NCBI GenBank assembly: GCA_017798125.1
Contig: CP059070.1
Span: 310,001 to 374,000 of the forward strand
Source: Cryomorphaceae bacterium
GTDB lineage: Bacteria; Bacteroidota; Bacteroidia; Flavobacteriales; ECT2AJA-044
DNA length: 64,000 nucleotides
Direction: 5' to 3'
Shown: positions 39,066 through 61,558 of the stretch, piece after piece
Position numbering within the stretch: the stretch's first letter is position 1
Layout: every line of letters begins with the position of its first letter
Translations under genes and position numbers: made by a program
Notes under the pieces: generated by a model
What the model was told of the DNA's origin: nothing
What the model saw: the letters and a program-made list of their open reading frames with translations, nothing else
Database searches by the model: none

Positions 39066-39068
39066 GAG

Positions 39069-39767: not shown

Positions 39768-39794
39768 CGACCCTAATTTCTTAATTTCCGATCG

Positions 39795-43010: not shown

Positions 43011-43048
43011 GTTCCTAAATATACGCAGAGGATGCGTTCAGGGTTGAG

Positions 43049-44776: not shown

Positions 44777-46720
44777 TTGTACGATTACCTCTTTATCGGA
44801 TACGGAGCCAGCACTTGCCTGATGCTTCGCGCACTCCTCCGCAACGGAATGCTGACCGGGAAATCTGTGGCCATTATTGATCCGGATTACCAGCGAGGGA
44901 ACGACAAAACGTTTTGCTTTTGGTCTGAAGAACACGACCCCATTCTCGATCACAATCGTGACCTCATCGACAAGAGTTGGAGTAAAATTCGGGTCGATGA
45001 ATGGGAGGAAGAAGCCCTCTCCCCCCTCTCCTATCATCACATCGAAAGTAAGCGCCTCTACGACACCACACGGGCCATGCTGGAACGGTACGCCGTGGAT
45101 TGGTTCGAGGCGTCTGTGGATGATCTTCAACCCCTGAAAAGAGGGGTCCGGATTCAAGCCGGCACCATTGAGGTGAAAGCGAAAAAGATTTTCGATAGTA
45201 GACCTGCCGGCTTTGAACGGAGCGATCGCAAACCCTTTGTCTGGCAAAGTTTTTTAGGATACCGCGTTCGGGTGAACGATCCAGTTTTCGACGCCGAGGT
45301 CTACCACAAGATGGATTTTCAAATCCCTCAGGATGGGGCCACTCAATTCGTTTATGTCCTACCCTTCAGCGAAACGGAGGCTTTGGTAGAGTGGACGAGG
45401 TTTGGAGTGGACCGCGTTGATCATGCATCGGCCCGTGAGGGCCTCGACCAATACATTCAAAACCGCTTTGGCGCGTACGAAATTGTGAGAGAGGAAGTCG
45501 GGGCCATTCCGATGGCGACGGGTTCTGCCAAGGTGGAAGACCTACCTCGCGTGCAATCGATTGGGACGCGGGCCGGGAAGGTTAAGCCAAGTACGGGCTA
45601 TGCTTTTAAGCGCATGTACGATCACGCGGAAGAGCTGATCTCCGGTGCTACCCAGTCTAAATCCGCGGAGCGATTCGCTTGGTATGATCACCTTCTGCTC
45701 TGGATCCTTGTGTATCAGCCGCAGTGGGGTCGATCGATCTTTAAAACGCTCTTCAAGACGCAATCCGCGGTTTTTGTTCTGCGCTTCCTCGATGAGCAAA
45801 GTAAACTCTATCAAGAGATTCCGATGTTCTTGCGCCTGCCCTTGAGACCGTTCATTCATTCGGCCATGGTGTACATCGGTCAGTGGATGCGCGATCGGTG
45901 GGAAGTCTTTTTCACCCCAGTTTTGGCTGCGCTTTTGGTAGCGCTGGCCCAGTGGAATTCGGCCCTGGCGCTTCAAATTGGCATCCCGCTATTGGTCTTT
46001 GGATTCTTGTTGGTCGGCTTACCGCATGGAGCCCTCGACGCGTATTTGGAACGGGGGAAACGATCTCTTCCCACGTTCATCGGACGCTACCTGGCCCTGA
46101 TGGCCGCCATGCTCTTCATGTGGTGGTTGGCCCCACTCCTGGCCCTCATCCTCTTTGTCGCCTACAGTGCCCTTCATTTCGGACAAACCGACACCGAAGA
46201 ATGGGGACTCAAAAATGCCGGTCTCGCCTTCCCATGGGGCCTCGGCCTTCTCTCCATTCTCTTAATCAGCCATTGGTCCGAAACAGCCGAAATCCTGAGT
46301 GAATGGGGGATTTATTTAAGTGCCTCCACGGCACGATGGGAAACGCCCACGCTCCTATTCCTCTTCGCAGGCAGTACAGCCCTGGCCCTCTATCATCGAA
46401 AAGAAGCCTGGCTGGCCAGCTTGGCCACCCTCGCCTTGGGGACGCAGCTTCCGCTCTTGGTCGCCTTTGGACTTTACTTTGTAGGTCAACACAGCCTCAA
46501 TGGCTGGAAGCACCTACAACGCTCCCAAGGCTGGAGTCACACAGGCATGTACCTGCGTGGACTTCCCTACACCTTGGGAGCTGTTCTGTTCTTTGCGATG
46601 GTCTGGTGGATGGATGCCTCCTTACTCACGGCTCAATGGAGTTGGCTTTTTGTCGCCCTCTCCGTGGTGAGTTTTCCCCATGTGGTGGAGATGCACCGGT
46701 TCTACGAGCGGCGCACTTAG
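44777..46720 (+). CDS. Lycopene beta-cyclase fused to Blh-type beta-carotene 15,15'-dioxygenase
   Basis: One 647-residue protein with two enzymes. Residues 1-380 are a CrtY-type lycopene cyclase: dinucleotide-binding start YDYLFIGYGASTCLMLRALL, IDPDYQRGNDKTFCFW, YVLPFSETEALVEWTRFG near 195 and TGYAFKRM near 280. It makes beta-carotene from lycopene. Residues 390-647 are a polytopic Brp/Blh domain that cleaves beta-carotene to two retinals. Candidate iron ligands are His417 (GLPHGALD), His467 (ALHFGQTD) and His572 or His579 (GQHSLNGWKH). Direct channelling of product is inferred. An in-frame stop at 44768 leaves TTG 44777 as the first start. No rhodopsin gene is in the window. The stop overlaps the convergent ExbB-like gene by 4 bases. 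Confidence 0.9.
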   Translation: MYDYLFIGYGASTCLMLRALLRNGMLTGKSVAIIDPDYQRGNDKTFCFWSEEHDPILDHNRDLIDKSWSKIRVDEWEEEALSPLSYHHIESKRLYDTTRAMLERYAVDWFEASVDDLQPLKRGVRIQAGTIEVKAKKIFDSRPAGFERSDRKPFVWQSFLGYRVRVNDPVFDAEVYHKMDFQIPQDGATQFVYVLPFSETEALVEWTRFGVDRVDHASAREGLDQYIQNRFGAYEIVREEVGAIPMATGSAKVEDLPRVQSIGTRAGKVKPSTGYAFKRMYDHAEELISGATQSKSAERFAWYDHLLLWILVYQPQWGRSIFKTLFKTQSAVFVLRFLDEQSKLYQEIPMFLRLPLRPFIHSAMVYIGQWMRDRWEVFFTPVLAALLVALAQWNSALALQIGIPLLVFGFLLVGLPHGALDAYLERGKRSLPTFIGRYLALMAAMLFMWWLAPLLALILFVAYSALHFGQTDTEEWGLKNAGLAFPWGLGLLSILLISHWSETAEILSEWGIYLSASTARWETPTLLFLFAGSTALALYHRKEAWLASLATLALGTQLPLLVAFGLYFVGQHSLNGWKHLQRSQGWSHTGMYLRGLPYTLGAVLFFAMVWWMDASLLTAQWSWLFVALSVVSFPHVVEMHRFYERRT

Positions 46721-47094
46721 TCCTTTTGAAGCCACGCACTCAAGCCCAGCCAAAGTGCTAGTGCTATGACGTAGATGATCAGGCCGTACATGGTCGGGAT
46801 CATGCTCACTTTGAATCCACCGGCAAGTAGCGCGGGTGACACGTCCACGAGTTTTAGCTCAATGGCTTTGAAGGCCGAGAATAGTCCAATGAGTTGTCCC
46901 AAGAGTCCAACAATGAAGGCGAAAAGTCCAATGGATCGGGTATAAGTCAACTGACGACTAATGTTTTCGAGTCCGCTTACTTGACCTCGTGTGATGCGCA
47001 AGACTTGGACAACCGTGACGCTGATCATGGCGATGAAAATGAGGGTTAACAAGCCCATAAAAAGAGCTCCTCCTTGATAAAATAATTCCAACAT
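46717..47094 (-). CDS. MotA/TolQ/ExbB-like proton channel family protein
   Basis: Small membrane protein of 125 residues with three hydrophobic segments (about 8-32, 55-75 and 95-120). The segment IGLFAFIVGLLGQLIGLFSA and the following SPALLAGGFKVSMIPTMYGLII match the conserved core of the ExbB/TolQ/MotA family, whose members form proton-driven channels with ExbD/TolR/MotB partners. It is much shorter than full ExbB (about 240 residues) and lacks the large cytoplasmic loop. No ExbD-like gene is adjacent. Its function is therefore open. Confidence 0.7.
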   Translation of the reverse strand: MLELFYQGGALFMGLLTLIFIAMISVTVVQVLRITRGQVSGLENISRQLTYTRSIGLFAFIVGLLGQLIGLFSAFKAIELKLVDVSPALLAGGFKVSMIPTMYGLIIYVIALALWLGLSAWLQKD

Positions 47095-47243
47095 GTTCTG
47101 TTCTATTTTAGTGGTGAAACATTGATGGTGTAAATGTGCTCCAGGAGGTGTTTTCCCGCAAGGTCGTATCCGGTGCTAAACCTGCAGTTTACCGATAAAT
47201 ACTGGGATTGTCGAGATGAATTTCGATTTTAGCGCCGAATCTC

Positions 47244-47999
47244 ATGAAAAAGCGAACGCTCGTACATATTCTCTTTTGGCTCGTCATTCTGGCCTTCTTG
47301 ACCATTTATTTTGGAGCGCAGTGGAAGAGTCGCATCCTGGCCTTTTATTTCTCGAGCATGTTGCTCCCGATCGTCGTTGGCACCACCTATTATTTCAACC
47401 TCCGTCTGGTTCCCAAATATTTCTTGACCGGCAGGTTTAGTCATTTTGGACTCTACTTCTTTTATCTACTCGTCATTTCCCTGTATGCCGAGATGATGGT
47501 GGCCTTGCTTTCCTTCGTTATCCTGGCCAATTACCAAGCGGATGTGATGAACTTAGGCAGTCTTTCGATATTCAATCTAGGCTTGACCCTCTACGCCATC
47601 GTTTTCGGGACCAGCTTTATTCGCATGGGCATTCAATTTCGTCAGCACTCGGCTTTAATCGAGGAGCTGAAAGAAGAAGCGGAGAAAAAAGCCGTGGGGA
47701 CCCTACAGTTCAAATCGGACCGAAAGAACGTTCAGATCGCCTTTTCCGATCTGCTCTACTTGGAAAGCCTGAATGAGCAAGTCCGGGTGGTGTCTGTAGA
47801 TGGTGACTGGACCACTCGAGAGAAGATCACCCACCTGCACGATCGATTGTCCGATGACTTCTTGCGCATTCATCGATCCTTTGTGGTCAACAAACACAAG
47901 GTCAGTAGCTTTTCCCGAACCGAAATTCAGGTCGGAGATATTGAGCTGCCGATTGGGAGGACGTATAAGAAGGAGGTTGTGGAAGAGTTGGAAGGCTAG
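47244..47999 (+). CDS. Membrane-bound LytTR family transcriptional regulator
   Basis: A 251-residue protein with four hydrophobic segments (about residues 8-25, 30-52, 67-95 and 108-130), a short coiled linker (LIEELKEEAEKKA) and a C-terminal LytTR domain. The domain shows VQIAFSDLLYLESLNEQVRV, REKITHLHDRLSDDFLRIHR and the end-motif ELPIGRTYKKEV. It lacks a receiver domain. It has the same layout as the protein at 15494 and belongs to the older, GC-richer sequence. Its stop lies ten bases before the left repeat of the sulfatase island. Confidence 0.87.
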   Translation: MKKRTLVHILFWLVILAFLTIYFGAQWKSRILAFYFSSMLLPIVVGTTYYFNLRLVPKYFLTGRFSHFGLYFFYLLVISLYAEMMVALLSFVILANYQADVMNLGSLSIFNLGLTLYAIVFGTSFIRMGIQFRQHSALIEELKEEAEKKAVGTLQFKSDRKNVQIAFSDLLYLESLNEQVRVVSVDGDWTTREKITHLHDRLSDDFLRIHRSFVVNKHKVSSFSRTEIQVGDIELPIGRTYKKEVVEELEG

Positions 48000-48008
48000 G
48001 ACTTTGTG

Positions 48009-48030
48009 AGCACGATCAAACACAGCCTAA
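48009..48030. repeat. Left copy of the 22-bp near-repeat flanking the sulfatase island
   Basis: AGCACGATCAAACACAGCCT followed by AA matches the copy at 58169-58190 at 20 of 22 positions, same orientation. AATAGAnnAG follows in both, after a two-base offset. It begins ten bases after the LytTR stop. It may be an attachment or target site, or a dispersed repeat. Confidence 0.6.
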
Positions 48031-48267
48031 TTAATAGATGAGTCCTCAAGATTACGAGGGCCGTTCTTAGTTTCCGCCATTGTGGTTTTTCCAATTACAG
48101 CGATTGATAGAGGCACTGAGACGTTGAGTAAAAGGAAACTTTTTAAGATTGACTGTTGGATTTCCTTGCCGTTTCGAGACTGACCTGAGAAGGTACGGTC
48201 GCAACCTCGATAACCTTTCCAGGGAGACCGTAAATCATCACCGGCCTTAACGCTCATATTCAATGTG
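48031..48267. other. Gene-free left margin of the sulfatase island
   Basis: About 240 bases between the left repeat and the AraC-family gene. A 78-codon frame on the minus strand (48027-48263) has no recognisable domain and no clear translation signal. It may be the remnant of a lost gene. No promoter or integrase sequence was recognised here. Confidence 0.4.
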
Positions 48268-49218
48268 TCAACGACTGAAATTTCTCTTCCTTTTCAGGGT
48301 TTCTGACGGCAACTCGCCGATAAGCTGTTTATAATCCTTAGCGAATTGCCCCATATGCCAAAAACCTTGTTTGGCAGAGATATCGGCAATGGTTTGTGAA
48401 TGATGGGCTTGTTTAAGTAATTCATGAACGCGCCGAATACGGAAGTTAGTTACGTATTGCTTGGGGGTTAGACCATAGGTTTCTTTAAATAAATTTTGAA
48501 GTGTTCGTTCGCCCAACCCTATTGACTTGTGCAAATCGTGCATTCGAAAATCTCGAGCCGAATGCAATTTGAGCCATTGGGTAGCTTCTTCGATTATCAA
48601 TAGACCTTTTTCGTTTTGATCTCCTCTACCTTCTTGATGAGCAATAGCATTAAAAATAGCGTGAAGAATTTGTTCGGAGTTTTGAGCTACATTATGATTA
48701 GAAGCCAATGCTTCAAGGAAATACTTCGACAATGATCTCAAATAATCTGTTGTTCGCACATCCAAATCCCAAACATTCTCTCCCGCTACTGCTTGTTCTA
48801 AGCGTGTATTCTTTTTTGTTGCTAAAATCCGCTGAAAAACGTCTTGCCGGAATGAAAGTGTATACACATTAAAACTACTGTCTGAGATGCTGAACAGCTC
48901 TCCATTGGTTGGAAAAAGCGACAACGACCGACCGTGTAATGGCTTGTTCCTCCATGTATAGTGCACATTGTCAAAAGCTGGAATAACAAAGGTTCTGAAT
49001 CCCTCCGGTGTTAATCCCTGTTGCTCGAGTTTGCCGTAAAAATTTCCTTGACCAATCATTATCGTCTCCAAAAACCCTTGTGTAATCGAAAACTCAAACT
49101 TCCCTGCGCCCAAGGGTAAAAAGTCCAAATTCCAATCCACCACGTTTTCACGAAGCAAATCGAGATCATTAAATTTGGTCGAGACGAACATACTCTTGCG
49201 GATTTTTGATATCCTCAA
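48268..49218 (-). CDS. AraC family transcriptional regulator
   Basis: Regulator of 316 residues. The C-terminal 100 residues hold the two helix-turn-helix motifs of AraC/XylS proteins (DFRMHDLHKSIGLGERTLQN; TIADISAKQGFWHMGQFAKD) with the usual YGLTPKQYVTNFRIRRVHEL between them. The N-terminal 190 residues form a ligand domain with FYGKLEQQGLTPEGFRTFVI, resembling EutR-like AraC proteins. It is divergent from sulfatase 1, and a perfect 20-bp palindrome lies in the 53-base gap, so it probably controls the cluster. ATG 49218 is used; ATG 49191 is an alternative. The sequence is AT-richer than the genes to its left. Confidence 0.9.
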   Translation of the reverse strand: MRISKIRKSMFVSTKFNDLDLLRENVVDWNLDFLPLGAGKFEFSITQGFLETIMIGQGNFYGKLEQQGLTPEGFRTFVIPAFDNVHYTWRNKPLHGRSLSLFPTNGELFSISDSSFNVYTLSFRQDVFQRILATKKNTRLEQAVAGENVWDLDVRTTDYLRSLSKYFLEALASNHNVAQNSEQILHAIFNAIAHQEGRGDQNEKGLLIIEEATQWLKLHSARDFRMHDLHKSIGLGERTLQNLFKETYGLTPKQYVTNFRIRRVHELLKQAHHSQTIADISAKQGFWHMGQFAKDYKQLIGELPSETLKRKRNFSR

Positions 49219-49237
49219 ACAAATAAACTAACTAAAA

Positions 49238-49257
49238 TTGTGAATCTGATTTCACAA
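49238..49257. promoter_or_regulatory. Perfect 20-bp palindromic operator candidate
   Basis: TTGTGAA and TTCACAA, a perfect 7-bp inverted repeat with a 6-base centre, lie between the divergent AraC and sulfatase 1 genes. The half-site resembles TGTGA of CRP-type sites, but the centre is two bases longer. It ends 14 bases before the sulfatase ATG. Confidence 0.6.
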
Positions 49258-49271
49258 ATAACAAACAAGAC

Positions 49272-50984
49272 ATGCGAGTTAAGTACACATTATATGCCCT
49301 GACATTGTTTATAGGCATTTCTACCGTTTCGTTTGCCCAGAATGAAATCATTCATGATGCTGAGTATTACATACTCGAAGCCAAACATGGTGAAAAATGG
49401 GCCGAACAAGATCAGGAGCTGAAAGATAAACTCGAAAAGCTCGAAAAGAAATTTGGCACTCCGCCCAACATCGTGCACATAATGTGGGACGATATGCCTG
49501 TTGGAGAGATTGGTATTCCGGCGCTGCAAAAAAACAGAGGGTTTGAAACCCCTGTAATGAACCAGGTTGCGGAAGATGGAATTCTTTTTACTCGAATGAT
49601 GACCGAACCTTCCTGTACACCGAGTAGAGCGGCGGCCATGACCGGACGTTATGCAGTGCGTAGCGGAATGTATAACGTAGCCTTTCCATACGAATATGGC
49701 GGCATTGGTGCAGATGAAGTAACTATGGCAGAAGTGCTTTCTGAAGCGGGGTACGCGACAGCATTTTACGGCAAATGGCATTTAGGAGATGTAGAATCAA
49801 GTTACTGCAACAACCAGGGATTTGATGAAGCCTTATGGACTCCGTACAATCAGGTCCCAAGTTTGTACGTACCTAGAGGACAACAAGCCGCGCTTTATCC
49901 TGGTAGCATGTATCCAAATATGTATCCAGAGGATAAATATGCATTGGATAATGACTGGATTCCGGATGGTTTTGTTTGGGCTCTAGAAGGTAAGAAGGGT
50001 GAAAAACCCAAAGAGTGGGGAGACACTTCAAGCGATGATGATTACTACAAAATCGATGATGAGTGTGTGAAGAGAGCGAAAGCCTTTATGGCCAAAAACA
50101 AAGACGAAAAGAAGCCCTTCTATATCGCCTACTGGCCGATGATGCAGTCATTCTTGGGGAATCAGCCAGGAACTCCGAATAATACTGTTGCTGGAGTAGC
50201 CGTCCAAGAAGGATATGTAAAGGTTGATGGTTATGTCGGACAAATCATGGATGAATTAGAGCGACTTGGTCTAGCCGAAAATACTTTGGTTATCCTCATG
50301 GCCGATAACGGTCCAATGACCCACAATGGTCCTCCAGGATTTATTGAGCACATTTACCGAGGAGGAAAAGGAGATTTTACTGAAGGAGCCGTGCGTGTCC
50401 CTGCCATTGCAAGTTGGAAAGGTGTTATCGATGGAGGTCAAATTGTGGGGGACATGATTCATATCACGGACCTCTTCACCACGTTTGCGAATTTAGCCGG
50501 AGCAACAGAGAATATTCCAACGGATAGAATTATTGACGGGTTAGATCAAACCGCTCTTCTTCTAAATGGCGACGGGTTTGGCAGACGTGACTACAATTTC
50601 ATTTACACTGGAAATATTTTGGCTGCTAGTGTTAAAGGGCGGTACAAAAGGCATTGGGTTGGCGAACTTCCTGGACTAAGTGGAGCCGCATTTTATGATC
50701 TATATAACGACCCGCGCGAGGTAAGTGGAAAAATGCTTCCTGGCTTTACAACCAAAGGGATGTTTATGGAAATGAAGATTCGCCATGAATTGTGGAAGTT
50801 AAAGTATCCGGATAACGAGTTGACTCGTGACTTTCCTTTCAAAGGCTTAGAGAACCCTTCGGAAAACGTTAAAGCTGCGTCTGAACCGCGGGTTGACCCA
50901 AAAGACTTGCCGTTTGATCCAAGAGAGTTCATCAACTATCTCAACGAGTGGGAGAATACAGAGACGCTCTGGTACGATGACTAG
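49272..50984 (+). CDS. Arylsulfatase (sulfatase 1, type A)
   Basis: Exported sulfatase of 570 residues; signal peptide ends near SFAQ (residue 23) and a short charged helix follows. The core has HIMWDDMPVGEIG (metal-binding Asp pair, near 76), the modification motif CTPSRAAAMTG with Cys115 as the formylglycine precursor, FYGKWHLGD near 163 and LMADNGPMTHNG near 340. GGKGDFTEGAVRVPA is near 365. It should hydrolyse a sulfate ester in the periplasm once Cys115 is oxidised by a maturase encoded elsewhere. A strong terminator follows at 50991-51019, so it is expressed apart from the downstream genes. Confidence 0.92.
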   Translation: MRVKYTLYALTLFIGISTVSFAQNEIIHDAEYYILEAKHGEKWAEQDQELKDKLEKLEKKFGTPPNIVHIMWDDMPVGEIGIPALQKNRGFETPVMNQVAEDGILFTRMMTEPSCTPSRAAAMTGRYAVRSGMYNVAFPYEYGGIGADEVTMAEVLSEAGYATAFYGKWHLGDVESSYCNNQGFDEALWTPYNQVPSLYVPRGQQAALYPGSMYPNMYPEDKYALDNDWIPDGFVWALEGKKGEKPKEWGDTSSDDDYYKIDDECVKRAKAFMAKNKDEKKPFYIAYWPMMQSFLGNQPGTPNNTVAGVAVQEGYVKVDGYVGQIMDELERLGLAENTLVILMADNGPMTHNGPPGFIEHIYRGGKGDFTEGAVRVPAIASWKGVIDGGQIVGDMIHITDLFTTFANLAGATENIPTDRIIDGLDQTALLLNGDGFGRRDYNFIYTGNILAASVKGRYKRHWVGELPGLSGAAFYDLYNDPREVSGKMLPGFTTKGMFMEMKIRHELWKLKYPDNELTRDFPFKGLENPSENVKAASEPRVDPKDLPFDPREFINYLNEWENTETLWYDD

Positions 50985-50990
50985 GATTTT

Positions 50991-51019
50991 AAAGGCCTGC
51001 TCTTAGCAGGCCTTTTTTT
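50991..51019 (+). terminator. Rho-independent terminator after sulfatase 1
   Basis: AAAGGCCTGC pairs perfectly with GCAGGCCTTT around TCTTA and is followed by a T-run. It starts seven bases after the sulfatase 1 stop and separates it from the five-gene block 51047-57964. Confidence 0.92.
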
Positions 51020-51046
51020 ATGTAGACAGAACCCCAAAAACGAGAT

Positions 51047-52234
51047 ATGGCATCAAGAAGAAACTTTATTAAAACAGCTGGTTTGGCTGGGATTGCTGCG
51101 GCAGCCGTGCCTTCAGCATGCGCGCGAGGAGTTGATCCAGAAAGCAAAACTTCAAACGCCGTTATTCCGTCCAGTGAAAAGAGTGATGCAACCATAAAAT
51201 ATGAAACGGGCCCCATAGGTGAAGGTGAGCCGCTACTGTTGGCAGGGTACGATTATAGTCGGGTGAAACCATTAGTCGAAGGTAAGGTGAAGATTGAAGG
51301 GTGTTCCTTTAATTATCAAGTGTCAGGTATTGGGGCCTTAAACAATCACGCATTCTTTGGTTCCCAAGAACGCGATGTCACCGAGCTGGGGCTTATACCA
51401 TACTTGCTGGCCTATGCGAATGATGATTTTCAGGACTACAAACTATTGCCATTACCCGTTCTTCGTATGTTCCGGCACCGCAGCGTTTGGGTTCGAACCG
51501 ATGGTCCGATCAAGCGACCTGAAGACTTACGTGGAAAGAAAGTAGCTACCGTTGGATACTCCAGTTCTGGGTTAACCCATATTCGAGGTTGGCTAGCTTC
51601 TGAGTATGGCGTGATGCCTGAAGAAATAGATTGGATTTCGACAAAAAAGGATTCAGCCGCGAACCTTACCAGTGGTGTTTCGAAATACGAAAAAATCATT
51701 CCTGAAAATATTGAAATGGAGTTTGCCCCAGATGGAGAAGACGAGTCTTCATTGCTTCTTTCAGGCCAAGTCGATGCAATTTTTCATCCGGCTGAACCGA
51801 AGTGTTTTCAGGAACGCAACCCAAATGTCCGACGGTTATTCACAGACTTCAGAACGGAGGAAATGGGGTATTTCACCAAGACAGGCATCTATCCAATTAT
51901 GCATACCGTTGCCATGAAGAGAAGTACCATCGAGGCCAATCCATGGATGCCAAAAGCCATTTTCGAGGCGTACTGCAAAGCAAAGGCCATGGATCTGAAA
52001 CACATGCAGCTCTTAGGTTGGGCTTATGATTCCCTGCCTTGGTACGGACAAGAATTTGATAATACACTCAATGAACTAGGACCAAACTTTTATGCCTATG
52101 GCATGGATAGAAGCCGGAAGGCGTATGAAGCGGCTTTCAGGTTTGTCTATGACCAAGGACTAGCGAAGCGCAAAATTTCGGTAGAAGATATTTTCGAAAC
52201 CTCAACATTGGATTTAAAAGATGCGATGTCTTGA
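51047..52234 (+). CDS. Tat-exported 4,5-dihydroxyphthalate decarboxylase-like / periplasmic-binding-fold protein
   Basis: A 395-residue protein that begins with a twin-arginine signal (ASRRNFIKTAGLAG) and a possible lipobox-like Ala-Cys (PSACAR). The body has the fold of type-2 periplasmic binding proteins (NMT1-like). Several segments follow the 4,5-dihydroxyphthalate decarboxylase pattern: RHRSVWVRTDGPIKRPEDLR, YPIMHTVAMKRSTIEANPW and the ending FRFVYDQGLAKRKISVEDIF. That family decarboxylates an aromatic diacid in the cytoplasm; an exported version is odd, so it may bind a ligand instead. It starts the block of three sulfatases and ends within four bases of the frame of the next one. Function is uncertain. 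Confidence 0.75.
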   Translation: MASRRNFIKTAGLAGIAAAAVPSACARGVDPESKTSNAVIPSSEKSDATIKYETGPIGEGEPLLLAGYDYSRVKPLVEGKVKIEGCSFNYQVSGIGALNNHAFFGSQERDVTELGLIPYLLAYANDDFQDYKLLPLPVLRMFRHRSVWVRTDGPIKRPEDLRGKKVATVGYSSSGLTHIRGWLASEYGVMPEEIDWISTKKDSAANLTSGVSKYEKIIPENIEMEFAPDGEDESSLLLSGQVDAIFHPAEPKCFQERNPNVRRLFTDFRTEEMGYFTKTGIYPIMHTVAMKRSTIEANPWMPKAIFEAYCKAKAMDLKHMQLLGWAYDSLPWYGQEFDNTLNELGPNFYAYGMDRSRKAYEAAFRFVYDQGLAKRKISVEDIFETSTLDLKDAMS

Positions 52235-52245
52235 AAAGGATTGAA

Positions 52246-54021
52246 ATGATTTTGAACAAAGGTCTTTACGCCTGCTGTAATTGGGTAAAAGGGAATCTGT
52301 TTAGGGCTTGTTTTTATATGCTTTCAGCTCTAATCATCTCGATTGGTTTCTCGGCATGCCAATCGAACAACGAAGAACCCAATGAGTTGAGGCCGAACAT
52401 TCTTTTGATTGTTGTGGACGACGCCGGATTTTCTGATTTCAGTAGCTATGGTGGAGAGATCAGTACTCCAAATATAGATCAGCTGGCAAGTAACGGGGTT
52501 CAATTCACTCGCTTCTACACGCAGCCCATGTGTGCGCCCACGCGTGCTTCAATTTTGTCTGGCGTTGATAACCATCAGAATGGCTTAGGAGCTATGCCAC
52601 CTATGCATACTCAGAATCAATACATGCAACCCGGATATGAAGGATACTTAAATGAAAAAGTGGTCACCCTTCCCGAAGTGCTGCGTGATAATGGCTATCA
52701 AACGTACATGAGTGGTAAGTGGCATTTGGGTTGTTTGGATTCGACTCAATATCCAAATGGAAGAGGATTTGAAAGAAGCTTTGCGCAAATGGCCGGAAGT
52801 GCGGGTCATTTTCAAGACGGTTTCGCTACAGGGCCGATTGACGTTCCAGTCACTTTTTATGTGGAAGACAACCGGCGAATTGAGGAGTTGTCGGAGAATT
52901 TCTACACGACTAAAGACTACACGGACTACATGATTCAATACATCAAAGAATCAGATGAGGAAAAACCAATCTTCGGGTACTTAGCTTATACGGCTCCTCA
53001 TGACCCGCTACATGTCACCGATGAATATATTGACAAATACAAAGGCGCCTACGACGAAGGTTTTGATGCCATACGTAGAGCGCGACTTGAGCGGATGAAA
53101 AATATGGGTTTAGTTGATGAATCCGTTCCGTACAATCCGGGTACGGGTAATTTCACTCAATGGGACTCTTTAACGGCAGATGAAAAAGTTATTCAGGCAA
53201 GAAGAATGGAAGTTTACGCGGCAATGATCGCTTGTGTAGATGACCAGATTGGCCGGTTGGTTGAAACTTTAGAAGCAGAGAAAAGGCTTGAAAACACGGT
53301 GTTTATTGTTATGTCGGACAACGGCCCAAATCCATATGATCCAGAGTTTTATTACTTGGGCAGTGTTGACGAGTTCAATAAACAAGGGTTTGATAATAGT
53401 TTAGAAAACATGGGAAGAGATAACTCTTTTATATCGCTTGGCGGCGCTTGGGCTGAGGTAACCGCTACTCCATTTAGCTACTACAAAACCACTACCGGGG
53501 AAGGCGGCATTCGGACACCTTTGATCATTTCAGGCGTTGGAATTGAGGCGAATGGTGTAAAAGATATAACGGTTCATGCTGCTGACATTTATCCGACAGT
53601 TCTAGAGCTTGCCGATGCCAAACGTCCTGAAACTTATCGAGGAAATCCAATGAATCCATTATTTGGTCGTTCAGCCAAGCCCCTTCTTGAAGGTGAAGAG
53701 GATCACGTTAGGGATACAGAGATTGAGCCATTGTGTTTTGAGATTAGCGGGTACAAGACAGTTATTCAGGGAGATTGGAAATTGATGCAAGGCAAGGCTT
53801 TTAAGAATGGAGGTAAATGGGTGCTAATCAACCTCGAGGAAGACCCGACCGAAAAAACGGATCTTTCCGAAGAGTATCCAGATAAGGTTAAAGAGATGGC
53901 GGAGCACTGGGAAGAATATAGCGTGAAACACGGGTATATTCCCCCCGAAGGAAACATGTATGTCATTGAAATTGGTGCAGAGACCTTTTACAACTATGGA
54001 CGGGATTACCGTGTAAAATAA
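52246..54021 (+). CDS. Arylsulfatase lipoprotein (sulfatase 2, Pseudomonas AtsA-like)
   Basis: A sulfatase of 591 residues with a long leader ending in a lipobox (GFSAC, near residue 38). It follows the Pseudomonas arylsulfatase (AtsA) pattern throughout: VVDDAGFSDFSSYGGEISTP, the CAPTRASILSG motif with Cys96 to be formylglycine, MSGKWHLG and APHDPLHV. A RRMEVYAAMIACVDDQIGR helix, VMSDNGPNPYDP and TTTGEGGIRTPLIISG follow. AtsA enzymes act on aryl and alkyl sulfates. The start is ATG 52246, because AAAAGGA lies five bases before it; a TTG at 52231 overlapping the previous stop is the alternative. It overlaps sulfatase 3 by one base. Confidence 0.92.
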   Translation: MILNKGLYACCNWVKGNLFRACFYMLSALIISIGFSACQSNNEEPNELRPNILLIVVDDAGFSDFSSYGGEISTPNIDQLASNGVQFTRFYTQPMCAPTRASILSGVDNHQNGLGAMPPMHTQNQYMQPGYEGYLNEKVVTLPEVLRDNGYQTYMSGKWHLGCLDSTQYPNGRGFERSFAQMAGSAGHFQDGFATGPIDVPVTFYVEDNRRIEELSENFYTTKDYTDYMIQYIKESDEEKPIFGYLAYTAPHDPLHVTDEYIDKYKGAYDEGFDAIRRARLERMKNMGLVDESVPYNPGTGNFTQWDSLTADEKVIQARRMEVYAAMIACVDDQIGRLVETLEAEKRLENTVFIVMSDNGPNPYDPEFYYLGSVDEFNKQGFDNSLENMGRDNSFISLGGAWAEVTATPFSYYKTTTGEGGIRTPLIISGVGIEANGVKDITVHAADIYPTVLELADAKRPETYRGNPMNPLFGRSAKPLLEGEEDHVRDTEIEPLCFEISGYKTVIQGDWKLMQGKAFKNGGKWVLINLEEDPTEKTDLSEEYPDKVKEMAEHWEEYSVKHGYIPPEGNMYVIEIGAETFYNYGRDYRVK

Positions 54022-55448
54022 TGATCATGAAAAGAATAGTCCTTTCGCTGGTTCCTGTTTTCTTGCTCCTTGCCCTCAACACTAAAGGCCAGCAAAAGCC
54101 AAATGTGGTTTTGATCATGATGGACAACTTGGGATGGGGAGAGCTCGGGTGTTATGGAGGCGGTGAACTGCGCGGTGCTCCAACCCCTAATATTGATCAG
54201 CTTGCCTCGGAGGGTATGCGTTTTTTGAATTTCAATGTAGAGGCGCAATGCACTCCAAGTAGGGCGGCTACTTTAACCGGAAGGTATGCGGTACGAACGG
54301 GTAATGCCAGTATTCCGATTGATTCACCTGTCTACGGACTAACACAATGGGAATATACTCTTGCTGAAATGTTCTCCGACGTAGGGTATTCAACCGCGAT
54401 GTTCGGCAAATGGCATTTAGGTCAAACGGAGGGCCGGTTCCCCACGGATCAGGGTTTTGATGAATGGTATGGGATTCCAAATTCTTCAGACGAGGCCTTT
54501 TGGCCTGATGACACCCGATACAAACCAAGTGCTCACCCATTTGCTCAAAGCACCTACATTATGGAATCTGTCAAAGGCGAGCAGCCAAAAGAATTGACGA
54601 TTTATAATTTAAGTCAACGGGCTATAATCGACGAGGAAATAACGTCCAGATCAGTTGATTTTATCAAGCGACAAGCTAAAAACACAGGTCCTTTCTTTCT
54701 TTTCATTCCCTATACACAAACCCATATGCCAACCACGCCTCATCCGCAATACAAGGGCAAAACAGGTAATGGAGACTTTGCTGATGTTCTGGTTCAAATG
54801 GATGATTACGTCGGCCGAATAATTGAAGCACTTGACGAACAAGGGCTCAACGAGAATACTATTCTCATATTCACCTCTGATAATGGGCCTGATCCACAAA
54901 CACCCTACCATGGGTTTAGTGGCCCGTGGAGAGGCTCCTACTTTACCGGGTTTGAAGGCTCATTGCGAGTCCCATGTATTATGAGATGGCCCAATAAAAT
55001 CCCCGGTGGAACGGTTACCAACGAGATTGTCCACGAAATGGATTTATTTCCAACCCTTGCAAGAATTGTAGGGGGAAAGATTCCCGATGACCGAATAATT
55101 GACGGAGTAGACCAACTCGACTTTCTATATGGGCGACAAGATTCGTCAAATCGTGAGAGTGTTATCATATACGTGGGTAATGAGATTTTTGGAGTAAAAT
55201 GGCGAAACTTCAAACTGATGACAAAAGAAATTGACAAAGCTTGGGGAAATGCAACGAGATCGTACAGTGTTCCCTTGTTTTACGATTTATATACCGATCC
55301 TAAAGAGGAGAATCCCTTGGACCCAAAGTGGATCGAAACGACATGGATGCGCTGGCCAGCTGGACAAGCCTTGACTGACCATCTTAAATCTTTAGAAGAG
55401 GAGCCTGTAATTCGGCCGGGAGCATTAGACCCATATCTTCCCGAGTAG
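54021..55448 (+). CDS. Arylsulfatase (sulfatase 3, type A)
   Basis: Exported sulfatase of 475 residues; signal peptide ends near NTKGQ (residue 24). It resembles sulfatase 1 more than its direct neighbours: CTPSRAATLTGRYAVRTGN (Cys77) against the nearly identical motif in sulfatase 1. The first metal motif reads MMDNLGWGELG, with Asn as second residue where Asp is usual, as in some arylsulfatases. FGKWHLG, HMPTTPHP, FTSDNGPDPQTP and FTGFEGSLRVPCIM complete the site. ATG 54021 overlaps the sulfatase 2 stop; ATG 54027 is equally possible. Confidence 0.92.
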   Translation: MIMKRIVLSLVPVFLLLALNTKGQQKPNVVLIMMDNLGWGELGCYGGGELRGAPTPNIDQLASEGMRFLNFNVEAQCTPSRAATLTGRYAVRTGNASIPIDSPVYGLTQWEYTLAEMFSDVGYSTAMFGKWHLGQTEGRFPTDQGFDEWYGIPNSSDEAFWPDDTRYKPSAHPFAQSTYIMESVKGEQPKELTIYNLSQRAIIDEEITSRSVDFIKRQAKNTGPFFLFIPYTQTHMPTTPHPQYKGKTGNGDFADVLVQMDDYVGRIIEALDEQGLNENTILIFTSDNGPDPQTPYHGFSGPWRGSYFTGFEGSLRVPCIMRWPNKIPGGTVTNEIVHEMDLFPTLARIVGGKIPDDRIIDGVDQLDFLYGRQDSSNRESVIIYVGNEIFGVKWRNFKLMTKEIDKAWGNATRSYSVPLFYDLYTDPKEENPLDPKWIETTWMRWPAGQALTDHLKSLEEEPVIRPGALDPYLPE

Positions 55449-55481
55449 GCTGTTTATAAGAACATTATATCACGATTAAAC

Positions 55482-56228
55482 ATGATTGTAGGATTGTTAA
55501 CTCTGTTTTCCATTTTGTTTTTTGGAGGATCACAAGAGTATTTTCTAGTAGAGAAACTGGAAAAAGGAGTAAAGGAATATGTCATTGAAAAAGATCGCAA
55601 GAAAGAAATCTTGTCTGACCTCGACATAACGGTCAAAACCATAAAGGTCTTTAATAAAAACCGCGAGAAGACATTGAGGGAGTATCACGATTTGAATGCC
55701 TCGTATTCGAGTACGAAAGCGGATTTCGACACTTTTTTGCAATCATTAAAAGAAGAGCGTGTGGCTTTTCAAAAAGACATTTTGGAACAACGAGTAATGG
55801 TCGTAGCCAAGATTACACCTGAAGAATGGTCCAATATCATTGAATACTCGAGTGAAAAGACAGAAAAACGTCTTGAAAAAGAGAATAAGAAAAAAGAGAA
55901 GGATGCTTTCTCAAAGATTAAGCAGAAAATAGATTCAGAGATTAGTGATGATGAGAAGCGAAACTCGGCACTTCAGGCCCTTGAACAGATTCAACTAAAA
56001 TTCAATGAGCTCGGAGACACCTATGCATCTTTAAACGCTCTCGAAAACAATCTGGTTAAAGATCAAAACACCACTCTTGAAGAAGGTGAAAAGTTAGGTG
56101 CACAGCTTAATGAACTCCGCACAGAAATGCACTTTGCAGTTGTTTCTTTTCATTTTGCTATCAAGGATCTATCAGATGAGTCGACCTTCGAAAGAATCAT
56201 GAAAACCGTAAATAAGGTCATCTTATAA
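55482..56228 (+). CDS. Unknown membrane-anchored coiled-coil protein
   Basis: A 248-residue protein not recognised. A hydrophobic N-terminus (IVGLLTLFSILFFGG) serves as anchor or signal, and the rest is almost wholly charged helix: YVIEKDRKKEILSDLD, RLEKENKKKEKDAFSKIKQK, then heptad-like LEQIQLKFNELGDTYASLNALE. It has no cysteine and no enzyme motif. It lies between sulfatases 3 and 4, with gaps of 33 and 14 bases, so it is probably co-expressed. It might hold or space envelope proteins. That is inference. Confidence 0.65.
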   Translation: MIVGLLTLFSILFFGGSQEYFLVEKLEKGVKEYVIEKDRKKEILSDLDITVKTIKVFNKNREKTLREYHDLNASYSSTKADFDTFLQSLKEERVAFQKDILEQRVMVVAKITPEEWSNIIEYSSEKTEKRLEKENKKKEKDAFSKIKQKIDSEISDDEKRNSALQALEQIQLKFNELGDTYASLNALENNLVKDQNTTLEEGEKLGAQLNELRTEMHFAVVSFHFAIKDLSDESTFERIMKTVNKVIL

Positions 56229-56242
56229 TTACCGGTGCGTAT

Positions 56243-57964
56243 ATGATATATTGTTCTAAAGAGTCTTTCTCGTCGCCATTTTCCTTGCTTACCATCCTAT
56301 CATGGACTGTACTTGCTGGCTGTTCACCCCAAAACCCTACGGCGCATAAAACAACAAGTAAGCCGCCGAACATCATCCTGATTGTCGCTGATGATGCAGG
56401 GTTTTCTGACTTTTCATGTTACGGTGGGGAAATCTCCACCCCTAATATTGATCGCCTGGCTAGTGCCGGCATGCAGCTAACCGATTTTCATGTTACGCCG
56501 AATTGTGCTCCTACGCGTGCAGCATTGCTCACAGGGAAAGACAATCATTTAGCCGGGATGGGTACGATGAGTGAGCTCATTACCGAAAATCAAATCGGTC
56601 AACCCGGTTATGAAGGTTTTTTGCGTCAAGATTTGAAGACACTGCCCGAAGCCCTCAAAGAAAACGGATACCGCACATACATGGTAGGTAAATGGCATTT
56701 GGGAGCCAAGCAGACCTCAATGCTTCCGTTTAACCGAGGATTTGACCGCACCTTTTCTATGCTCGCAGGAGGAGCAAGTCATTGGAGCGACAACAAACCA
56801 CTCATACCCGGGAAGTCCAGTCTGTATACACACAATGGGAAGATCATTGAAGAACTACCGATGGATTTCTATTCAACGGAGTCCTACACAGATAGCATTA
56901 TTTCATTTATAGACGAAGATATTCAGAAAGACAGACCATTTTTTGCATACGTAGCATACACTGCCCCACACAATCCGCTACACGCACCTAAAGCTTATAT
57001 CGAAAAGTATAGAGGGAAATATGACTCGGGGTGGTCGGTTCATGCCGAGAATCGGCTGAGTCAGATGAAGGATCTCGGAATAATCCATGGCGACCAAGTT
57101 GCTTACGAATTTCCCGATTGGATTAGCCCTTGGAACGAGCTCAGTGATGAGCAAAAGGCTTCTCGAGCAAGAGACATGGAGGTATATGCAGCGATGATTG
57201 ACTACATGGATATGAGCATAGGACGATTATTGGAATATTTAAAATCAATAGAGGCATACGATAATTCCATAGTCATTTTCATGTCGGACAACGGAGCAAG
57301 CAAAACCACAATAAATGATTACGCAAGTTTAGGTAGAGAAATTGAAGAGCATTTGGCATCTTTTGATAATTCCTTGCCAAACAAAGGGCTGCCAAATTCC
57401 TATCCGGACATCGGTCCGGGTTGGGCTTGGTCATGCAACACGCCATTTCGACATACCAAAGGATATCCTACAGAAGGTGGAATGCGGGTACCGTTGGTCA
57501 TCAAGCTACCTGCCGAGACCCGATTGAAGCCACAAAGAATCTCAAGCTTCGCGTATGTCACCGATATTATGCCCACATTACTTGATTTGGTTGGCGCCGA
57601 ATCTATAGAAGATGTTGAACCAGACGATGGCATGAGCAACTTAGGACAATCATTACTCCCTGTTTTGACCGGGAATTCTGAGGCCGGTACGGAGCGCCAA
57701 ATGGGATTCGAGCTTTACGGAATGCGAACCTTTAGATCTGGCATGTGGAAAATAAACATGTTGCCCACGCCATACGGAACTGGGGAATGGACCTTACACA
57801 ATTTGCAGAGCGACCTTTCCGAACAAATTGATCTTTCCGAGAAAGAACCTGAAAAACTAAAAAGGATGATCAAGAAATACGAGGCCTATGCAGAAAAAGT
57901 AGGTGTGGTTGAGCCAGATCGTCCCGTTGGATATTCAAAACCTCCTAAAGAGGGTGCCTATTAG
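56243..57964 (+). CDS. Arylsulfatase lipoprotein (sulfatase 4, Pseudomonas AtsA-like)
   Basis: A sulfatase of 573 residues with a lipobox (VLAGC, near residue 28). It is a close relative of sulfatase 2: VADDAGFSDFSCYGGEISTP, CAPTRAALLTGKDNH with Cys88 as formylglycine precursor, MVGKWHLGAK and YTAPHNPLHAP. A RDMEVYAAMIDYMDMSIGR helix, FMSDNGASKTT and TEGGMRVPLVIK follow. The C-terminal FELYGMRTFRSGMWKINMLP segment is typical of the AtsA group, which cleaves aryl and alkyl sulfates. Last gene of the island; no terminator is evident after it. Confidence 0.92.
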   Translation: MIYCSKESFSSPFSLLTILSWTVLAGCSPQNPTAHKTTSKPPNIILIVADDAGFSDFSCYGGEISTPNIDRLASAGMQLTDFHVTPNCAPTRAALLTGKDNHLAGMGTMSELITENQIGQPGYEGFLRQDLKTLPEALKENGYRTYMVGKWHLGAKQTSMLPFNRGFDRTFSMLAGGASHWSDNKPLIPGKSSLYTHNGKIIEELPMDFYSTESYTDSIISFIDEDIQKDRPFFAYVAYTAPHNPLHAPKAYIEKYRGKYDSGWSVHAENRLSQMKDLGIIHGDQVAYEFPDWISPWNELSDEQKASRARDMEVYAAMIDYMDMSIGRLLEYLKSIEAYDNSIVIFMSDNGASKTTINDYASLGREIEEHLASFDNSLPNKGLPNSYPDIGPGWAWSCNTPFRHTKGYPTEGGMRVPLVIKLPAETRLKPQRISSFAYVTDIMPTLLDLVGAESIEDVEPDDGMSNLGQSLLPVLTGNSEAGTERQMGFELYGMRTFRSGMWKINMLPTPYGTGEWTLHNLQSDLSEQIDLSEKEPEKLKRMIKKYEAYAEKVGVVEPDRPVGYSKPPKEGAY

Positions 57965-58168
57965 CTTTAATCAATGAAACCCGAGGTTTCCAACAAGCTA
58001 GCATTGACTTTTCAATCCCGGCAACAAACAATAAAAGGACAAGTCACCTTAGCTGAAGTCACCTTCAAACGGGCAGATTCTGGCCCTTAGCATGTTGCCC
58101 TGTACTGGTTTTTAATGGTGTGTTCCGTCCGACTTAAGAATTTTGCTCAAGCGTATGGGGACCGAGCA
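57965..58168. other. Gene-free right margin of the sulfatase island
   Basis: About 200 bases without a supported gene, between sulfatase 4 and the right repeat. It contains a 10-bp direct repeat (AAGTCACCTT at 58041-58050 and 58056-58065). No integrase, insertion-sequence end or promoter was recognised. Confidence 0.4.
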
Positions 58169-58190
58169 AGCACGATCAGACCCAGCCTAA
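58169..58190. repeat. Right copy of the 22-bp near-repeat flanking the sulfatase island
   Basis: AGCACGATCAGACCCAGCCT followed by AA; 20 of 22 positions equal the left copy at 48009-48030. It lies five bases beyond the terminator of tRNA-Gln, on the side of the tRNA 3' end. Confidence 0.6.
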
Positions 58191-58194
58191 ATAG

Positions 58195-58219
58195 AAAAGC
58201 CCCCGCAAATGCGAGGGCT
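58195..58219 (-). terminator. Rho-independent terminator of tRNA-Gln
   Basis: On the minus strand AGCCCTCGC pairs with GCGGGGGCT (one G-T pair) around ATTT, followed by TTTCT. It lies 20 bases after the tRNA 3' end. Confidence 0.85.
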
Positions 58220-58238
58220 GTTCCTTCCTTTTTTCTTG

Positions 58239-58309
58239 TTGCCCGACTAGGACTCGAACCTAGACTGACGGTACCAAAAACCGCTGTCCTGCCATTAGAC
58301 GATCGGGCA
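58239..58309 (-). tRNA. tRNA-Gln (anticodon UUG)
   Basis: A 71-base cloverleaf on the minus strand. Acceptor stem TGCCCGA pairs with TCGGGCA and the discriminator is A. The D arm has GTC/GAC and the anticodon stem GCGGT/ACCGT with loop TTTTGGT, giving anticodon TTG. The T arm is CTAGG-TTCGAGT-CCTAG. CCA is not encoded. Its own promoter and terminator are visible. The 3' side faces the right repeat of the sulfatase island. Confidence 0.96.
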
Positions 58310-58357: not shown

Positions 58358-58497
58358 ACAAAATTTGAGGGGCTGTGGAGGTGGACATCGGGCCGTAGGC
58401 CCAGATCTCTTGCTTTAGCTTTTGGGAAAACCTTAACGGCTGTACCCCAAGTGCTGTTCAAATATTGGTTAAATTCGCCACCGATAAGCTATTTAAG

Positions 58498-60555
58498 ATG
58501 GGCAAACGCTACGATTTCATCAACAATGTTTCCGGCTGGGTGGTCTTCGCGATCGCGGCCGTGACATACCTCTCTACGATTGAACCCACAACCAGTTTTT
58601 GGGACTGTGGGGAGTACATTTCAACCGCATTTAAGCTACAGGTAGGGCACCCTCCCGGTGCGCCGATGTTCCAAATCCTGGGAGCCTTCTTTGCGCTCTT
58701 CAGCTTTGGCGACGTGACTCAGGTAGCCTTGATGATCAATGCGATGTCGGCCTTGTCGTCAGCCTTTACCATCCTATTCTTATTCTGGACCATCACAGCC
58801 TTTGGTCGTCGCATTGCCGAGCGCAGCGAAGAGGATATGGGAGAAGGAGGCATGTATGCTATCATCGGTGCTGGTGCCGTTGGGGCCTTGGCCTACACCT
58901 TCAGTGATTCTTTTTGGTTCAGCGCCGTCGAAGGTGAGGTATATGCGATGAGTAGCTTCTTTACCGCGATCATTGTTTGGATGATCTTTAAGTGGGACCG
59001 CGACTACGGCAATCCACACGCGAATCGATGGATCATTTTGATCTCCTTAATGATTGGAATGGCCGTTGGTGTTCACATGTTGGCATTGTTGGCCTTCCCT
59101 GCCGTGGGCATGGTCTACTACTTCAAAAAGTACACGGTAACGCCCCGCGGGTTTGTGATCGCAAACGTGGTTATGTTGCTGATTCTAGGCGTCATCTTTA
59201 AAGTGGTCTTCCCGGTTGTATTGAACTTCAGTTCTTGGATGGAAATCACCTTTGTCAACGGCATGGGGCTTCCTTTCTACTCCGGGACTATTCTGGCCTT
59301 TGTCATCATTATTGGAGCCATTGTTTTCGGCTTGCGATACACCAAAAAGCGCGGCTGGGACCTAGGGCATATGGCGGTTTTGAGTTTCGTTTACCTGTTG
59401 ATCGGTTACTCAACCTTTTTCAGCCTGGTGATTCGCTCCAATGCAAACACACCTATTGACGAGAACAACCCGGAAGATGCTCCGAGCCTTCTGGCCTATC
59501 TGAACCGTCAGCAGTACGGGGATTGGCCGATTGCCTATGGATGGTACTACAACTCTCCATTGGACCGACGCACGCCTTTTAAAGACGGAACGCCCATCTA
59601 CGAAAAGGATGAGGAGAAAGGGGAATACGTGGTAGTGAATGACATGAAGAATGCCATTCCAAACTACGACTCGGACTTCATGAGTATTTTCCCGCGGATG
59701 TGGGATCGAAATGACCCGAATCACGCCACCACTTATAAGGAATGGGGAGGAGTAACAACTCCAGACAGCGAAAAGCCTTCTTTTGGAGCCAACCTGCGCT
59801 TCTTCTTCCGCTATCAAGTCAACTACATGTATTTCCGATACTTCATGTGGAACTTCAGTGGTCGACAGAACGATGAACAGGGACGAGGCGGTATAACCGA
59901 AGGGCAGTGGATCTCTGGTATTAAGTTCATTGACGAACCACGCCTAGGACCTCAAACGAATTTGCCGCTTAAGCAGACCGGCAGCAAAGGCCGGAATGTG
60001 TACTTCATGCTGCCTTTCCTATTGGGATTGGTCGGATTGATTTGGCACTGGAACAAGAACAAGCAAGATGCGTGGATTGTCACCCTGCTCTTTGGACTTA
60101 CGGGATTGGCGATTGTGGTCTATGTGAACCAGTACGCCTATCAACCGCGAGAACGGGACTACGCCTATGTGGGTAGTTTCTATGCCTTTGCCATCTGGAT
60201 TGGATTGGGCGTCATGGCCATCTTTGACCAGCTGCGCAAGAAAGCACCGGGCAAGGTGGCGGCTATCGCCGTGACGGGAGTTTGCCTTTTGGCTGTTCCA
60301 GGAATCATGGCCAAAGAAAACTGGGATGATCACGATAGATCCGGACGTGTATACCGCTCAAGACAGATGGCGCATGAACTATCTGGACAGCTGTGCTCCG
60401 AACGCCATCCTGTTTACCAATGGGGACAACGACACCTTCCCTCTTTGGTATGTGCAAGAAGTCGAGGGCTACAGAACAGATGTCCGTATTGTCAACTTGA
60501 GCCTGTTGAACACCGATTGGTACATCGATCAGATGAAGCGCGCTGCCTACGATAG
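58498..60555 (+). CDS. DUF2723 membrane protein, N-terminal part (frameshifted)
   Basis: First two thirds of a DUF2723 protein, a GT-C-fold membrane glycosyltransferase-like family of Bacteroidota. The N-terminus NVSGWVVFAIAAVTYLSTIEPT and the motif SFWDCGEYISTAFKLQVGHPPG are diagnostic: an acidic residue in the first periplasmic loop is the usual GT-C catalytic site. About ten membrane segments follow, then the conserved RERDYAYVGSFYAFAIWIG. From about residue 618 (base 60349) the frame leaves the family pattern and reads through unrelated sequence to a stop at 60555. The true continuation is in the next frame. The start is ATG 58498 (MGKRYDF), not an upstream TTG. Protein O-glycosylation is the suggested role. 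Confidence 0.88.
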   Translation: MGKRYDFINNVSGWVVFAIAAVTYLSTIEPTTSFWDCGEYISTAFKLQVGHPPGAPMFQILGAFFALFSFGDVTQVALMINAMSALSSAFTILFLFWTITAFGRRIAERSEEDMGEGGMYAIIGAGAVGALAYTFSDSFWFSAVEGEVYAMSSFFTAIIVWMIFKWDRDYGNPHANRWIILISLMIGMAVGVHMLALLAFPAVGMVYYFKKYTVTPRGFVIANVVMLLILGVIFKVVFPVVLNFSSWMEITFVNGMGLPFYSGTILAFVIIIGAIVFGLRYTKKRGWDLGHMAVLSFVYLLIGYSTFFSLVIRSNANTPIDENNPEDAPSLLAYLNRQQYGDWPIAYGWYYNSPLDRRTPFKDGTPIYEKDEEKGEYVVVNDMKNAIPNYDSDFMSIFPRMWDRNDPNHATTYKEWGGVTTPDSEKPSFGANLRFFFRYQVNYMYFRYFMWNFSGRQNDEQGRGGITEGQWISGIKFIDEPRLGPQTNLPLKQTGSKGRNVYFMLPFLLGLVGLIWHWNKNKQDAWIVTLLFGLTGLAIVVYVNQYAYQPRERDYAYVGSFYAFAIWIGLGVMAIFDQLRKKAPGKVAAIAVTGVCLLAVPGIMAKENWDDHDRSGRVYRSRQMAHELSGQLCSERHPVYQWGQRHLPSLVCARSRGLQNRCPYCQLEPVEHRLVHRSDEARCLR

Positions 60556-61558
60556 TGATGCAGTTCCCTTCAGTATGACACGGGACAAGTACGTAGCCAA
60601 TCGTCGAGAGATTGTGTACTACGTAGACAAAGGTGTGACCAACCGCTGGACTGTGGATGACTTCATTCGCTGGATTGCGAGCGATGATCCACAGACGAAG
60701 GTGAGCAGTGGTCGTCAACAGTTTGATTTCTTCCCAACGCGCAAGATTCGCGTACCGGTGCAGAAGGAAAACGCCTTGGCCAACGGAATTGTCGAAGCGG
60801 AACGCGCAGATCAAATGGTCGACTACATCGATATTGACTTTGGTCAGCGCAACAGCTTGCTGCGTCGAGATGTGATGATCTTGGATCTATTGGCGACCAA
60901 TGATTGGCAGCGTCCGATTTACTTCGCCATCACGGTAGGAAACCGTCCTCGCGACTTCATGTATTTGACCGACTACTTTGAGTTGAGCGGTATGGCCTAT
61001 CACTTGGTTCCGATTCGCCAGGAGCGCGATCGCACCGGGCAAATTGGAGGAGTAAACTCCGATGTGATGTACGATGTGGTCATGAACAAGTTCCAGTGGG
61101 GGAACATGAATGACCCAGGCGTCTACATGGATGAGACCAACCGCCGTATGACCTTGAACTTCCGGAACAACTTCGCTCGATTGGCGAATAAATTGAATCA
61201 GGAAGGCAAGAATGATTCGGCTATTGCCGTCTTGGACAAGGCCATGGAGCAAATGCCAAACGAGGTGGTGCCGTACAACTACTTTAACTTGCCTATGGCC
61301 GAGGAGTACTTCTTGGCGGGGGCGAAAGACAAGGGAACGGAAATTCTGACCACCTACGGAGATATTATTATCGAGGAGTTGGAGTATTACGCTCAATTCC
61401 CGAGGACCAAGCAGGAATTGGTCGCTACGGAGATTCAGCGCGATTCTCAGTTCTTGCAGCAGGTCGTTCAATTGGCACGACGTTACGCGGATCAGGATGT
61501 ATCTGATGAGCTCAACACAAAGTTGACTCAGGCGCTCAGCCTCTACGGAATCCAGTAA
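60326..61558 (+). CDS. DUF2723 membrane protein, C-terminal part (after frameshift)
   Basis: Soluble periplasmic C-terminal third of the same DUF2723 protein. The family sequence resumes at base 60350 (YTAQDRWRMNYLDSCAPNAI, then LFTNGDNDTFPLWY), directly after DDHDRSGR in the other frame, so one extra base (G at 60349 or nearby) separates the halves. Later segments TNDWQRPIYFAITVGN and SAIAVLDKAMEQMPNEVVPY (TPR-like) are usual for the family. ATG 60326 is only the first start in this frame and probably not a natural one. Joined, the two parts give about 1,020 residues, the normal length. Confidence 0.85.
   Translation: MITIDPDVYTAQDRWRMNYLDSCAPNAILFTNGDNDTFPLWYVQEVEGYRTDVRIVNLSLLNTDWYIDQMKRAAYDSDAVPFSMTRDKYVANRREIVYYVDKGVTNRWTVDDFIRWIASDDPQTKVSSGRQQFDFFPTRKIRVPVQKENALANGIVEAERADQMVDYIDIDFGQRNSLLRRDVMILDLLATNDWQRPIYFAITVGNRPRDFMYLTDYFELSGMAYHLVPIRQERDRTGQIGGVNSDVMYDVVMNKFQWGNMNDPGVYMDETNRRMTLNFRNNFARLANKLNQEGKNDSAIAVLDKAMEQMPNEVVPYNYFNLPMAEEYFLAGAKDKGTEILTTYGDIIIEELEYYAQFPRTKQELVATEIQRDSQFLQQVVQLARRYADQDVSDELNTKLTQALSLYGIQ

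Follow-up and report, generated by a model that had tools for sequence, protein, structure and literature searches.

The window analysed here, a stretch of 64,000 nucleotides, carries at about 48.08-58.17 kb a set of genes that we interpret as a horizontally acquired arylsulfatase cassette, which entered just downstream of a tRNA-Gln gene, most likely via a crossover in the terminator region of that gene (we put the probability of this reading at about 0.72). The island is of an ordinary kind with slightly unusual edges, in that the terminator is duplicated and the tRNA is not, an edge structure that departs from the textbook att pattern. While it leaves the understanding of genomic islands unchanged, it provides a well-delimited example of probable cross-phylum sulfatase transfer into a Flavobacteriales-type bacterium, and sulfatase cassettes bear on the bacterial use of sulfated compounds. 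A narrow combined-term search of the literature found no paper on sulfatase islands.

Gene content of the island

The gene block occupies about 10 kb between a LytTR gene and a tRNA-Gln gene. Between the two copies of a flanking repeat, it encodes an AraC regulator, four exported Cys-type sulfatases, a decarboxylase-like protein with a Tat signal and a protein of 248 amino acids, in agreement with the first-pass annotation of this DNA, which had listed a regulator, four sulfatases and two accessory genes. The AraC-family gene (48268-49218, minus strand; Pfam HTH_18, 3.2e-20) is divergent from the sulfatase genes, and the AraC protein probably controls them as an operon. On the plus strand, sulfatase 1 (49272-50984; Pfam Sulfatase, 1.5e-38) is followed by the gene for the Tat-signal protein (51047-52234), by sulfatase 2 (52231-54021), which has a lipoprotein-type leader, and by the exported sulfatase 3 (54021-55448). 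The gene for the 248-aa protein (55482-56228, plus strand) has a GC content of 0.369; its product has a hydrophobic N-terminus and gave no Pfam or NCBIfam match above the cutoff. The last gene, sulfatase 4 (56243-57964, plus strand; Pfam, 4.2e-65), again encodes a lipoprotein-type leader and is about 42% identical to sulfatase 2.

All four sulfatases combine the Pfam domain PF00884 with a C-x-P-x-R motif, as expected of type I (S1) sulfatases, the formylglycine motifs read from the translations being CTPSR, CAPTR, CTPSR and CAPTR for sulfatases 1 to 4 in that order. The best PDB match of sulfatases 1 and 3 was the arylsulfatase 7aj0 (E 2.1e-76 for sulfatase 3). Sulfatase 2 aligned with the Pseudomonas arylsulfatase (PDB 1hdh) over 517 residues (E 3.5e-122) and has the Cys-type CxPxR motif in common with it; unlike 1hdh, it carries a predicted lipoprotein-type leader. 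The decarboxylase-like protein aligned over 325 residues with 4,5-dihydroxyphthalate decarboxylase (PDB 9jp7, E 2.4e-52), which places it in that sequence family, and differs from 9jp7 by a twin-arginine leader (MASRRNFIK) suggestive of export. Homologs of this protein are often annotated as substrate-binding proteins.

No SusC/SusD pair and no glycoside hydrolase was found among the seven genes, and the block is therefore not a polysaccharide utilisation locus. The predicted substrates of the sulfatases are small sulfate esters, perhaps aromatic ones, from which sulfate would be released; an aromatic acid would be the substrate or ligand of the decarboxylase-like protein. The gene set appears to fit scavenging of small sulfate esters better than polysaccharide use. 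The lack of an integrase in the block, remarked on in the first-pass annotation, was confirmed and extends to relics: a Pfam and NCBIfam domain search found an integrase or recombinase in 0 of the 7 genes, and six-frame translation and alignment revealed no recognisable integrase remnant in the noncoding right end of the island, a stretch of about 200 bases (57965-58168).

Composition and relatives of the island genes

That the block is rich in AT had been noted relative to its flanks, and it holds genome-wide: the island has a GC content of 0.439, compared to 0.496 +/- 0.018 in 10-kb genome windows, the genome composition being sampled from sixteen 20-kb stretches. On the left side, the change point in raw GC nevertheless falls at about 46.9 kb and not at 48.0 kb, about 1.1 kb outside the repeat. 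Codon usage gave the same result, with a GC3 of 0.39-0.45 in the island genes as against 0.561 +/- 0.065 in 196 sampled ORFs; all seven genes are within the lowest 1.5-4% of the sampled genome ORFs by this measure. The LytTR-domain regulator gene of the left flank (47244-47999, plus strand; Pfam LytTR, 9.3e-16) has a host-like GC3 of 0.635, and no ortholog of it was found in 40 relatives.

Relatives were sought for five of the seven genes, namely the AraC gene, sulfatases 1 to 3 and the decarboxylase-like gene. Searches with sulfatase 1 came back empty both in the order (295 other genomes, cutoff 1e-60) and in a sample of the phylum Bacteroidota (394 other genomes, cutoff 1e-70). A homolog of the decarboxylase-like gene was detected in 1 of the 295 other genomes of the order, in the form of paralogs 24-30% identical to it. 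In a plasmid collection, the best relatives among the matches listed were on plasmids of marine or soil bacteria, mostly Proteobacteria, and the best plasmid matches of the AraC regulator include Ruegeria. Sulfatase 1 showed 38.5% identity over 91% with Ruegeria plasmids and joined three Ruegeria plasmid proteins in a tree of 23 sequences (support 100/99). In the same tree, sulfatase 3 was sister to a Photobacterium plasmid protein (support 98/96); its identity to the Photobacterium protein was 53%, compared to at most 43% in the 394 other Bacteroidota genomes, the plasmid and Bacteroidota samples being unmatched in size and breadth. The affinity of sulfatase 2 is ambiguous: a relative from the Bacteroidota matches it just as well (462 bits, 43%), and affinity to Proteobacteria is therefore not common to every gene. 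The long branches of the tree imply either an unsampled donor or a transfer that happened some time ago.

A plasmid of Ruegeria sp. AD91A (NZ_CP031947.1) offers a close parallel in gene arrangement. As in the island, its AraC homolog and its sulfatase-1 homolog (35% identity) are divergent neighbours. Unlike the island, this alphaproteobacterial plasmid has a small gene between the AraC and sulfatase genes, and its annotated neighbours within about 10 kb include neither a decarboxylase-like gene nor another sulfatase. Because the GC3 is foreign, about 300 genomes of the order hold no close homologs of the marker genes of the block, and sulfatases 1 and 3 have a proteobacterial affinity, the acquisition of the block is well supported.

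A direct repeat of terminator DNA at the island edges

Near-repeats of 22 bp in the same orientation had been reported to flank the block, and they proved to be real and larger than claimed. The left copy, AGCACGATCAAACACAGCCTAA, is at 48009-48030 and the right copy, AGCACGATCAGACCCAGCCTAA, at 58169-58190; the two differ at 2 of 22 positions (20/22 identical). As had also been described, the left copy lies just past the LytTR stop, which ends at 47999, nine bases ahead of it, and the right copy just beyond the tRNA-Gln terminator. In the whole genome, a single contig of 2,844,510 bases, the 22-mer occurs at exactly two sites at up to 3 mismatches, and it had no match in shuffled window sequence; a dispersed repeat, the reading that many copies would have favoured, is therefore ruled out. 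A phage att site is likewise unsupported for the 22-mer, as its two exact matches in 2.9 million viral contigs are close to the chance level that we estimated from 18 specified bases. Sulfatase 1 had no match among viral sequences.

A longer, gapped repeat, about 60-66 nt in length, includes both the 22-mer, which is its best-kept part, and the tRNA-Gln terminator hairpin. Its copies, both on the plus strand, align from 48009 to 48074 and from 58169 to 58231 with one gap of 3 nt. The left copy combines the 22-mer with a degenerate terminator-like hairpin (stem 48042-48061) that still pairs (GTCCTC/GAGGGC), and the right copy combines it with the strong terminator of tRNA-Gln (stem 58198-58219). 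The right copy ends about 7 nt from the 3' end of the tRNA-Gln (TTG) gene (58238-58309, minus strand), which is intact according to ARAGORN and gave the sole match in an Rfam search (tRNA, 58.3 bits). Past the repeat itself, the two noncoding ends of the island show no likeness to each other.

The 25-mer core of the repeat is 88% identical. In a whole genome, such a match is less than overwhelming on its own: when the left flank (45000-48270) was used as a genome query, the right copy was not listed at E <=0.01. The long repeat, however, had a local alignment score of 41, compared to a mean of 17.9 (sd 2.2, maximum 28) for 1000 dinucleotide-shuffled pairs; the in-register remainder past the 25-mer, taken alone, gave p of about 0.02-0.03. 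As a control, we aligned 307 intergenic pairs, 2-20 kb apart, within 384 kb of the same genome; a score of 41 was equalled or exceeded elsewhere only inside two repeat-rich loci (L184 and L185). Each flanking repeat is a copy of the terminator of tRNA-Gln together with the DNA just downstream of it, and the two copies are old and have diverged.

The two repeat-rich control loci have features of their own. In L185 (2300-7500; genome positions 2.602-2.608 Mb), low-GC3 ORFs are separated by repeats of 55-95 nt with GCCTAAC...GTTAGGC ends, which resemble the attC sites of a chromosomal integron cassette array. In L184 (5780-13784; at 2.4 Mb), a large direct repeat with an alignment score of 1018 lies between two stretches without called ORFs.

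Route of entry and alternative explanations

The first reading of the block was that of a tRNA-associated acquired island. Much of this stands, since the block is acquired, lies beside a tRNA, is bounded by a unique direct repeat and has no integrase. The part that did not hold concerns the repeat, which cannot be called a normal att site of a tRNA: it is wholly downstream of tRNA-Gln and contains terminator DNA but nothing of the tRNA gene itself, and no copy of the tRNA 3' end was found at the left edge, nor any tRNA fragment above chance in 48060-48267. With tRNA-associated islands and integrative elements, the block shares an intact adjacent tRNA, flanking direct repeats, an atypical, foreign composition, a patchy distribution and accessory metabolic cargo. 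It differs from them by encoding no integrase and by having its repeat in the terminator region instead of the tRNA 3' end. Integrase-type islands are described for Flavobacteriia such as Riemerella anatipestifer in one report (PMC6764341).

We propose that the island entered by a crossover in the tRNA-Gln terminator region, in which the resident DNA recombined with a copy that the island had brought along. Such an exchange could have been a homologous single crossover, or it could have begun as a site-specific event at the tRNA, with the integrase and the tRNA fragment since lost. We class the block as a decayed or never-complete tRNA-associated island, and it is apparently immobile.

At the right flank of the island, the tRNA-Gln gene and a TMEM260-like gene (58465-61558, plus strand) form a divergent, head-to-head pair that is kept across the order and is therefore old, whereas the DNA downstream of the tRNA varies between genomes. 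A survey based on the TMEM260-like neighbour returned family-level relatives only (at most 60% identity), with other DNA downstream of the tRNA. The TMEM260-like gene, an uninterrupted ORF of about 1030 amino acids in relatives, is split here by a single extra base near 60350, which reflects either an error in the sequence or a true pseudogene. Between the two genes, at 58390, is the palindrome GGGCCGTAGGCCC, a REP-like dispersed repeat with 7 occurrences in 384 kb sampled; many related short matches are also present in a genome of the same genus.

On a different account, there was once a second, tandem tRNA-Gln gene, and the left repeat copy is what remains of its terminator, the island having replaced or split the old pair. 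The repeat would then be left over from a duplication of the tRNA, as opposed to marking an insertion. Tandem tRNA-Gln genes do occur at the same locus in five relatives (L028, L036, L037, L044 and L051), and the two copies in the last of these each come with a terminator, the terminators being near-identical; a repeat made of a terminator and downstream DNA is also what a lost tRNA unit should leave. Beside the left copy there is, however, no detectable trace of a tRNA body, and only one tRNA-Gln is present in L024-L027, the relatives whose TMEM260-like proteins are the closest. We regard this account as possible and rather doubtful.

A further explanation, to which we give a similarly low weight, is the insertion of a classic integrative element at the 3' end of tRNA-Gln via a tyrosine integrase, with later loss of the integrase and the att fragment. 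Elements of this type exist in the sole same-genus genome compared (G001), which contains at least 3 copies of a related tyrosine-integrase element end, 74-91% identical (L076 375-396 on contig C86, L231 on C31 and L232 490-847 on C8). One such end adjoins an intact tRNA-Arg and a tyrosine-integrase N-terminus (Arm-DNA-bind_5), while another has an isolated, exact 22-nt tRNA-Gln 3' end with no tRNA attached; these elements show a tRNA-type site in use. Also in line with a classic element, the similarity of the left copy fades within a few bases of the expected tRNA start. On the other hand, the repeat holds no tRNA sequence, site-specific recombination within the tRNA would not on its own duplicate the terminator, and the edges of the island have only tRNA bases in common with the G001 element end. 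Judged from this comparison, the island is not the G001 element. At the orthologous counterpart, in the genome of the window, of the region beside the G001 tRNA-Gln fragment (position 1284512 onward), no tRNA gene was found in 8 kb. Of the three routes, which agree with the data to differing extents, we tentatively prefer the crossover in the terminator region to both an eroded integrase event and the replacement of a tandem tRNA. A generalisation of this preference, that integration targeted to tRNA terminators and downstream DNA, through homologous or unrecognised recombination and without an own integrase, is a recurrent entry route for proteobacterial metabolic cassettes into these bacteria, strikes us as improbable.

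Hardly credible, finally, is a sulfatase block ancestral to the lineage and lost elsewhere, with a repeat due to chance or to a shared terminator motif: a single other genome of the genus or family was compared and does not keep the locus, but the composition, the homolog distribution and a repeat score far above the shuffles all speak against it. In that genome, the tRNA-Gln/TMEM260-like locus is absent from the assembly; one contig matches the window genes at 34451-44677 and then departs, so that synteny is lost at 44680, before the LytTR gene. No empty site of the predicted form, with the LytTR gene next to tRNA-Gln and a single 22-mer, was found in the genomes compared. Just past the end of synteny, at 44777-46720 of the window, lycopene cyclase and Blh-type beta-carotene dioxygenase domains are present in a single ORF.
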